32,500 nucleotides of DNA, taken from positions 562,501 through 595,000 of the forward strand of contig JACVTC010000100.1 in assembly GCA_016946835.1 (NCBI GenBank), in the 5' to 3' direction. Source of the DNA: Neocallimastix lanati (nom. inval.). Its lineage: Eukaryota; Neocallimastigomycota; Neocallimastigomycetes; Neocallimastigales; Neocallimastigaceae. Positions within the stretch are counted from its first letter, which is position 1. Every line of letters starts with the position of its first letter. This document shows, piece by piece, positions 29,983 through 32,500 of the stretch. A program made the position numbers and the translations under genes. A model generated the notes under the pieces. The model did not search any database. It was given only the letters and a program-made list of their open reading frames with translations, and was not told where the DNA came from.

Positions 29983-32500
29983 ATGATTCCATATTTAGTT
30001 TATTTTGTTCAATTTCACGAAGATTTCAGACTTCCCGGTAAATATTTTAAATAATAATATATTGAAAATAATATTTAAAAAAAAGTTCGCATTATTGATA
30101 TTTAATAATGATTATTAATTAAAAATTAATATTATTGTTTAAAATTATATATATATATATAAATCTTTTCAATATTTAATAGAACTCGAAGCTTTAGCAA
30201 AATTAGAAAATGTTAAAATAAAATTTAATCGTGAAGAATATTCAAACGATGTAATTAATCATATATTTATTTATTCCTTATTTGAAAAAAAAAAATAATA
30301 GAATAAATATAATAATTAATAAAATTTTTGTTTTTATTATATAAATTTTAATATATATATTAAATAGAAATTTCAAATTCAATAAATTAGTTCTAATCTT
30401 TTTTTTTTTTTTTTTTTTTTTTTTTAATTTTTGAATGTTATATTTTATTTTATTATTTTTTTTAAAAAAAAAAATAAATTAAAATAAAAGAATCCATTCT
30501 TTATAGTGGAACTTGAATCAGACGAAGAAGCAAAACGTTTAATCAGACGTTCAATTTTAATAAAGTAAAATATTTATAATTTTTATATTCAATAATAGAT
30601 AATGTTTCATATTATAACCATTTAATACATTTATAATAATAGATATATTATTCAACTTTGGACGACTGGAAATGATTATCCAGAAGTTTATAAAAATTTA
30701 AAAAGCTTTGACTCAGAAAAATATGTAATTTCAGAGTGATTTTATTAATTCAATATTCACCGAGAAAATTTAGTATATAATAGAATTTTAAATTTTTAAT
30801 TATTTTATTTTTTTTTATTTTCATTAAAAAAAATATAAAAAATAAATAATAATATTATTGTTAATAGAAACCATATGAAACTTCAACATTTAAATTTATG
30901 GTTGAAACTTACAATGGTACTAGAACTATGAAAGAACAAGTTGATATTATTAATACTTTTTCATTCCTTCCATTTACTGGTAACATAGATTTAAAGAAAC
31001 CAGCTAATACCTTTATGGTGTTGGAAAAATACCCAGCACCAACTGAACCACCATGCAAAATTTATATGGGAAAATTAGTCGGTAGTGGTGATAGACAATT
31101 AGTAGCAACTTATGATTTAAAGAAAAGAAAGTATTTAGGAACAACTTCTATGGATGCTGAATTATCTTTAATTATGTCTAATATGGCTTTAGTAAGTTCT
31201 TGAATCATTAAAAATTTATTTTTATTTTTTATTTATACATTTAGATACTAAATTATTTAACATATATTTATATACAATTTAGGTTCGCCAAAATTCATTA
31301 GTTTTAGATCCATTTGTTGGTACTGGTAGTTTCTTAATTACATGCTCCCATTATGGGGCCTTCACTTTAGGTAGTGATATTGATGGTAGACAAATTAGAG
31401 GAAAAGGAAAAACTAGTATTGCTACAAATATTGAACAATATAATATGAAAAAAAGAGTATTAGGAACTATTGTTAGTGATATGGGTATATATATATAATT
31501 TATATATATTATTATATAATAATTTATATAAAAGAAATAATAATAAAAAAATTTTTAAATGTACTTGTAAATCTATTATAATAATAATAATAATAATAAT
31601 AATAATAATAATAATAATAATAATAATAATAATAATAATAATAATAATAATAATAATAATAATAATAATAATAATAATAATAATAATAATAATAATAATA
31701 ATAATAATAATAATAATAATAATAATAATAATAATAAATTATAAAAAGCTCATCATCCATGGAGAAATAATGGTGAATTATTCGATGCTATAGTAACAGA
31801 TGTAAGTTTCATACTTATATATGTAAATATTATTTAAATATAAAAATTAATACTAAATTTAATAAATATTTTCATATTTCATCTAATTGTTGTGATTAAT
31901 TAATTATTGGCTAAATAGCCGCCATGTAAGTTGTTACTTTTATATACTTATATATATGTATAATAATAATATTTTAAATATGTACATATTATATTTTTAT
32001 TTTATTTAATAAAATAAATTTATACCTAATATAGATGGTGTTCGTGCTGGTGCGAAAAAGATTGGTTTAAATACTGAAAAGTATGATGCTCCACCACCAA
32101 CTAAAAGAGATGTAATGAATCCAAGATATCCATTAACTGTTCCATATGAAATGGAACAAGTGTTGATTGATTTAATTGAATTTGCTAGTAAATACCTTGT
32201 TATTGGTGGACGTTTAGTATATTGGTTACCAACTAATTCGGAAGAGTAAGCTATTATAATGAAATAATGAAATTTGAAATTATTTTTTTTTTTTAATATT
32301 AATTATTATTATTAATATTTATTATTATTATTGTTATCGTTATTATTATTGTTAATTATTATTTATTACCATCAAAAATATTTTTTATAAATAAAATGAA
32401 ATGAAATTAAATAAAAATGAAAAATAATAATAATAATAAAGATATAATAAAAACGATATACCACAGCATCCATCACTTAAATTAATCGCCAATAGTGAAC
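29983..32500 (+). CDS. TRM11: tRNA (guanosine-10-N2) methyltransferase TRM11, 3' partial
   Basis: Ten exons: 29983-30037, 30183-30250, 30491-30564, 30643-30724, 30868-31191, 31283-31484, 31749-31801, 31919-31925, 32035-32245 and 32442 to the right edge. All introns are GT..AG and every phase agrees. The 378 visible residues follow TRM11 from end to end: FRLPELEALA near the N-terminus, NPFFIVELESDEEAKRLIRR, LPFTGNIDLKKPANTF, KRKYLGTTSMDAELS, the AdoMet-binding DPFVGTGS (210-217), TDPPYG (catalytic DPPYG, 286-290), GGRLVYWLPT and HPSLKLIANSE at the edge. TRM11 works with the small activator Trm112 to methylate N2 of G10 in tRNAs, in the cytoplasm. The last part, perhaps 40-70 residues, lies outside. 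Odd points are the 7-nt exon 8 and a long AAT repeat in intron 6. Identification is secure. Confidence 0.95.
31578..31738. repeat. (ATA)n microsatellite, about 53 units, in TRM11 intron 6
   Basis: A pure 161-base ATA/AAT run inside the 264-nt intron 31485-31748, ending only 10 bases before the AAAAAG acceptor. The tract has no AG, so it does not create rival acceptors. The long Ile-only and Tyr-only frames across it are artefacts. Confidence 0.95.
31919..31925 (+). other. 7-nt microexon of TRM11 (exon 8)
   Basis: The bases CCGCCAT are flanked by AATAG upstream and GTAAGT downstream. Exon 7 ends ACAGAT (Thr-Asp) in phase 0 and exon 9 starts ATGGTGTT in phase 1. Together they read T-D-P-P-Y-G-V, the invariant catalytic motif. 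Flanking introns are 117 and 109 nt. Skipping it would delete Pro-Pro and shift the frame. Confidence 0.93.

Follow-up and report, generated by a model that had tools for sequence, protein, structure and literature searches.

In a TRM11 gene of an anaerobic gut fungus, a 7-nt exon very probably represents a genuine, most likely constitutive spliceosomal microexon, which supplies the two prolines and the first tyrosine base of a DPPYG motif. The gene lies on the plus strand of the window (the whole stretch of DNA analysed, 32,500 bases, C3 562501-595000, G+C content 19%; genome 199 Mb in 762 contigs) and extends from 29983 to beyond 32500.

Gene structure and the 7-nt exon

Ten exons were modelled, the last of which the window truncates to 59 nt; the 2,500 bases immediately 3′ of the window (C3 595001-597500) read N. 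The exons, and the two introns that flank the microexon, are listed together with their counterparts in a second gene copy (L004).

29983..30037, plus strand: TRM11 exon 1, start codon at 29983; 55 nt, also in the second copy
30183..30250, plus strand: TRM11 exon 2; 68 nt, both copies
30491..30564, plus strand: TRM11 exon 3; 74 nt, both copies
30643..30724, plus strand: TRM11 exon 4; 82 nt, both copies
30868..31191, plus strand: TRM11 exon 5; 324 nt, both copies
31283..31484, plus strand: TRM11 exon 6, contains DPFVGTGSF; 202 nt, both copies
31749..31801, plus strand: TRM11 exon 7, 3′ end GAT (Asp of DPPYG); 53 nt, both copies
31802..31918, plus strand: intron 7, 117 nt, GTAAGT...AATAG, phase 0; 161 nt and diverged in the second copy
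31919..31925, plus strand: exon 8, the predicted microexon CCGCCAT (Pro-Pro and base 1 of Tyr), 7 nt; CCACCAT in the second copy, L004 3954-3960
31926..32034, plus strand: intron 8, 109 nt, GTAAGT...TATAG, phase 1; 137 nt and diverged in the second copy
32035..32245, plus strand: TRM11 exon 9, 5′ ATGGT (remaining Tyr bases, Gly); 211 nt, both copies
32442..32500, plus strand: TRM11 exon 10, leaves the window; this last exon (336 nt) is complete only in the second copy

The DPFVGTGSF sequence of exon 6 is taken to be the AdoMet-site motif. Intron 6 (31485-31748) carries a long (AAT)n tract and measures 264 nt, versus 115 nt in the second copy.

Encoding of DPPYG requires the exon CCGCCAT, and the interval 31802-32034 consists precisely of intron, microexon and intron. 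Under the modelled splicing, GAT at the end of exon 7, the 7-nt exon and ATGGT at the start of exon 9 join as GAT CCG CCA T/AT GGT (D P P Y G) and the frame stays open through exon 9; intron 7 follows the Asp codon of the motif and intron 8 interrupts its Tyr codon. The sequence thus agrees with a preliminary description, in which the motif was spread over three exons with a 7-nt exon in the middle, and the GTAAGT and AATAG signals and exact frame closure described there are likewise present. In both copies the exon separates two canonical GT-AG introns by only 7 nt of coding sequence, well inside a limit of 15 nt, and is needed for the frame.

GT-AG paths between exons 7 and 9 were enumerated under two limits: no intron shorter than 40 nt and, where two introns were used, no middle exon longer than 60 nt. 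The window copy gave one in-frame path with one intron (TDVNGVR) and four with two introns; the second copy, on contig C123, gave one, which keeps intron-coded residues and is without DPPY, and three. In each copy exactly one path encodes DPPY. As any Pro-Pro-Tyr exon of this kind must show AG-CCNCCNT-GT, this pattern (AGCCNCCNTGT), although composed only after the exon had been seen, was used for an estimate of chance: it matched once in the 32,500 bases, both strands included, and in 0/100 dinucleotide-preserving shuffles. These results confirm the 7-nt exon as a real spliceosomal microexon, as far as splicing can be predicted from the gene model.

Two other origins of the arrangement were considered and rejected. 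Alignment of introns 7 and 8 as tandem duplicates of one intron scored 31 in the window (shuffle mean 28.7; reached by 31.7% of 300 shuffles) and 34 in the second copy (shuffle mean 34.9; reached by 60.7%). A stwintron was judged not to apply, as there are two whole introns, distinct from each other, and the 7 nt between them are coding.

Elsewhere in the window, the minus strand at 1-11240 carries two long open frames: one of 2410 aa, which is not closed at the window edge, and one of 1193 aa. The 1193-aa frame matches PF22544, an Ig domain of the HYDIN/CFA65 type, with 27.9 bits (cut-off 25.5), and related domains under their cut-offs, which suggests a cilium or basal-body protein. At 23834-25480, minus strand, a class 3 lipase domain (PF01764, E 3.9e-22) precedes a long tail in the encoded protein, which presumably resembles diacylglycerol lipase. 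In the genome as a whole, the 150 that were scored of 1440 candidates for PF02013 (CBM_10; prokaryotic controls, 0/14), which we take to be the family including the fungal dockerins, were all above the cut-off. Together with the base composition and the genome size, this suggests an anaerobic gut fungus of the Neocallimastigomycota, perhaps Neocallimastix.

Identity of the encoded enzyme

The name TRM11 was given because of matches to PF01170, TIGR01177 and PDB entries, together with a presumed resemblance to yeast Trm11. The spliced protein matches PF01170 with 42.1 bits (cut-off 22.3) and TIGR01177 over residues 5-297 with E 6.5e-22; the latter score (78.3 bits) lies well under the cut-off of 316.55, in a library built for bacterial and archaeal annotation. 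No Pfam match to a THUMP domain was obtained at E 0.001, but the TIGR01177 match does span the N-terminal part. TDPPYG of PDB 5e71 (N2,N2-dimethylguanosine tRNA methyltransferase) was aligned exactly to the reconstructed TDPPYG. The residues opposite this motif in 6zxw and 6zxv (tRNA guanine(10)-N2 dimethyltransferase) are TDYPY, which shows that the first Pro can vary within the family; all three structures are, we assume, archaeal. By PF01170 and the PDB alignments, the protein has an RlmKL-like methyltransferase domain with D-PP-Y, and the TRM11-like identity proposed earlier is backed by the PF01170 score and the 5e71 alignment. By homology, the product is a putative catalytic subunit for tRNA G10 N2-methylation.

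For the role of the motif itself, no description was found in the open-access Trm11 papers examined. An NPPY motif has been described for PrmC/Mtq2 and N6AMT1 (for N6AMT1 in the accessible part of PMC6769652), and by analogy DPPY may position the guanine amino group and act in catalysis.

The genome contains a second gene of the UPF0020 family (L005 1317-1530; G000:C346 near 1240853), the motif of which, IVT-D-LPWG, is split by an apparent intron. This intron (L005 1323-1516; ACAG/GTAATA ... AAAAG/ATTTACCATGG) interrupts the same Asp codon, in phase 1, and lies 2 nt from the position of TRM11 intron 7. The gene is presumably THUMPD2/3-like.

The second gene copy

Two DNA probes, parts of exon 6 and of the last exon, were searched against the organism's genome and found the same two loci, the gene in the window and a paralogue on C123 (92% identity in the exon 6 search); the count of two copies rests on these two probes, and a more diverged third copy may exist. 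Exons 1-9, all that are complete in the window, do not differ in length between the copies. The C123 microexon, CCACCAT, is found in the same place with a single silent change (CCG to CCA), and is preceded by AATAG and followed by GTAAG.

The two proteins are identical at 359/378 residues. Substitution rates were dN 0.024 and dS 0.415 by NG86 (dN/dS about 0.06) and dN 0.019 and dS 2.37 by YN00, in which dS is probably saturated; selection on the protein is strong and purifying in both copies. The introns are identical in 38-69% of alignment columns, introns 7 and 8 in 61% and 68%. The C123 copy is the strongest evidence for the predicted exon being real and under selection; the conservation of the microexon is seen in a single comparison within the same genome. 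Searches for relatives with the pattern gave 10 matches in viral_contigs and 84 in genome_contigs, with 0 relatives in either; as these collections consist of viral and prokaryotic records, this result says little about fungi.

TRM11 is duplicated, then, as two diverged copies in unlike surroundings, with purifying selection on each. No open frame in the surroundings of the C123 gene matched, as protein, the window or the readable flanks on C3, and because of these dissimilar surroundings and the kept introns the C123 copy looks like a dispersed duplicate, not a retrocopy.

Splice signals and proposed splicing

The matrix used to score splice sites was derived from only the 14 other introns, which were themselves scored in-sample. 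The signals of the microexon are mixed. In the window its donor ranks second of 14 GTs, behind the donor of exon 7 itself, and its acceptor first of 6 AGs; in the C123 copy both signals take second place, the donor among 8 GTs and the acceptor among 4 AGs, and intron 8 contains a decoy AG with a better score (L004 4002, score 7.0). In both copies introns 7 and 8 have the lowest-scoring acceptors of the nine (2.1 and 1.2 versus 5.6-9.0 for the others in the window; 4.4 and 1.2 versus 6.9-9.9 in C123), in part because of the in-sample scoring of the others.

Skipping of the microexon would produce a frameshift, as described previously: the window copy would gain 11 new residues before a stop at 32068-32070, and the C123 copy 9 before its stop; these stops lie 175 and 181 nt, respectively, before the end of exon 9, with a further intron downstream. 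If intron 7 or intron 8 were retained, translation would likewise end early in either copy; a functional enzyme therefore depends on the removal of both introns. Mis-spliced messages would encode inactive protein and would probably be degraded.

The flanking introns (117 and 109 nt in the window, 161 and 137 nt in C123) are neither short nor long for this gene, whose introns span 78-264 nt. At this ordinary size each could be recognised across itself, by intron definition, and the two may be removed successively; once the first is removed, the 7-nt exon would be fused to a normal exon and would no longer be too small. In the accessible text of PMC8378409, tiny exons impede exon definition, and a C. 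elegans microexon becomes independent of PRP-40, an intron-definition helper, when its flanking introns are very short, which favours the proposed route. The PRP-40-independent introns described in that text are 49-58 nt long, whereas those of TRM11 are longer (109-161 nt). The earlier statement that so short an exon is hard for the spliceosome is thus partly overstated: it applies to exon definition, but need not carry over to intron definition, which the ordinary flanking introns permit.

Alternative explanations

A regulated switch, in which varied inclusion of the microexon turns tRNA G10 methylation on or off and the skipped mRNA is non-productive through frameshift, early stop and decay, had been proposed for this gene; we consider it improbable. 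The position of the skip-form stops, upstream of another intron, would suit such a switch. A shift of frame is automatic on skipping of any exon of 7 nt, which is not a multiple of 3, and is no sign of regulation. In animals, regulated microexons are often set in conserved intronic sequence. Between the two TRM11 copies, the first 20 nt of introns 7 and 8 have 16 and 13 identical positions (11-16 in the other seven introns) and the last 20 nt have 12 and 11 (9-17), so that no conservation above background was detected at the microexon in what is, with two copies only, a weak test. No evidence for the proposed switch emerged from the sequence. Precedents exist: the Xlr2 microexon of Trichoderma virens is, in the part of PMC11121469 available, a functional fungal microexon with reported glucose-dependent inclusion, whereas the TRM11 exon is predicted from sequence. 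Human N6AMT1/HEMK2, likewise a methyltransferase partnered by TRMT112, carries NPPY in a skippable exon, and its isoform 2, which lacks that exon, fails to replace yeast Mtq2 (PMC6769652, accessible part). This isoform differs from the TRM11 case in being human, in the removal of 28 residues and in its loss of TRMT112 binding; in the same source its mRNA is reported as equal and its protein as undetected, which weakens it as a precedent. A broader form of the proposal, that the methyltransferase family is controlled in anaerobic fungi through splicing of its catalytic motif and that skipping or retention by life stage lowers tRNA G10 methylation, appears quite improbable; if it were true, the L005 intron in the same Asp codon would be the same pattern and not a coincidence.

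Constitutive splicing of the microexon was also weighed against two readings that dispense with it. An in-frame isoform could arise in the window copy if splicing ran from a donor shifted 4 nt downstream, with 31806 as first intron base, to 32035; this is the sole one-intron in-frame path enumerated there and would replace TDPPYGVR by TDVNGVR in a full-length, probably inactive protein. Such an isoform is very unlikely indeed: both prolines and the tyrosine are lost, the donor does not rank among the region's top six GTs by score, and at the matching place the second copy lacks a GT (GTAAATTTC). Hardly more credible is a decaying or non-functional gene with a broken motif, in which the apparent 7-nt exon is coincidental. 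The odd structure by itself would fit decay, but the modelled coding sequence is open in both copies with the low NG86 dN/dS given above, the microexon and its signals persist while the introns have diverged, and the shuffles returned no chance match to the pattern.

Frequency of microexons

PF00118 (CCT/Cpn60) served as a yardstick for the genome. Of its 89 matches, two single partial ones (C15 and C688) were excluded; the remaining 87 lie in 19 stretches and provided 68 adjacent match pairs, many of them from duplicate gene copies and not independent. A strict direct-join test was passed by 39/68. Nine further joins deviated from the expected length by at most one residue but fell under the splice-score limit, seven were over the limit with 3-12 extra residues (one of these being the second-ranked candidate), and four direct joins were identified by eye from paralogue alignments. 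In four gaps an apparent ordinary exon of ~84 nt with putative junctions was identified by eye. Five pairs were left over (three overlapping matches and two gaps of 67 profile positions). A microexon was needed in 0/63 resolved pairs (59 direct joins of differing strength and four through the ~84 nt exon); such exons are thus not commonplace here, and microexons look uncommon in the genome in this small sample with duplicate copies.

The previous remark that microexons this short are rare in fungi agrees with the survey, but has to be set against published cases down to 1 nt (PMC12940212) and 6 bp (PMC1184071), both articles being available in part. In the CYP621A P450 genes of Fusarium, a single-nucleotide exon lies in the conserved motif PKG (Nelson and Syed 2026, PMC12940212). 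Like the TRM11 exon, it is ultra-short, internal to a motif, needed for frame and motif and kept across copies, and it was found by similar logic, through a phase mismatch of the flanking exons; it differs in its length of 1 nt and in being documented, in the text available, by RNA reads from two species and by 20 orthologues, whereas the 7-nt exon of TRM11 was deduced from genomic sequence. The P450 genes of Phanerochaete chrysosporium contain microexons of 2-10 codons, the shortest of 6 bp, and small introns are frequent (PMC1184071, accessible part); these too are tiny fungal exons, but in a white-rot fungus and a P450 family. In plants, 2,398 microexons of ≤15 nt were found by RNA-seq, likewise tiny coding exons with flanking introns that are likely removed consecutively (PMC8831610, available sections). 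In the open-access literature, outside which most subscription journals lie, no report was found of a microexon in TRM11 or of microexons in anaerobic fungi.

Significance

Fungal microexons are already documented, and the TRM11 case adds another example. Automatic annotation is likely to miss such an exon, so that TRM11 would be called truncated or wrongly fused. The paralogous pair offers a ready test of splice order and fidelity. The predicted exon is far under the size for exon definition and stands, in a seemingly poorly studied fungal phylum, at a spot where an error would destroy the enzyme.
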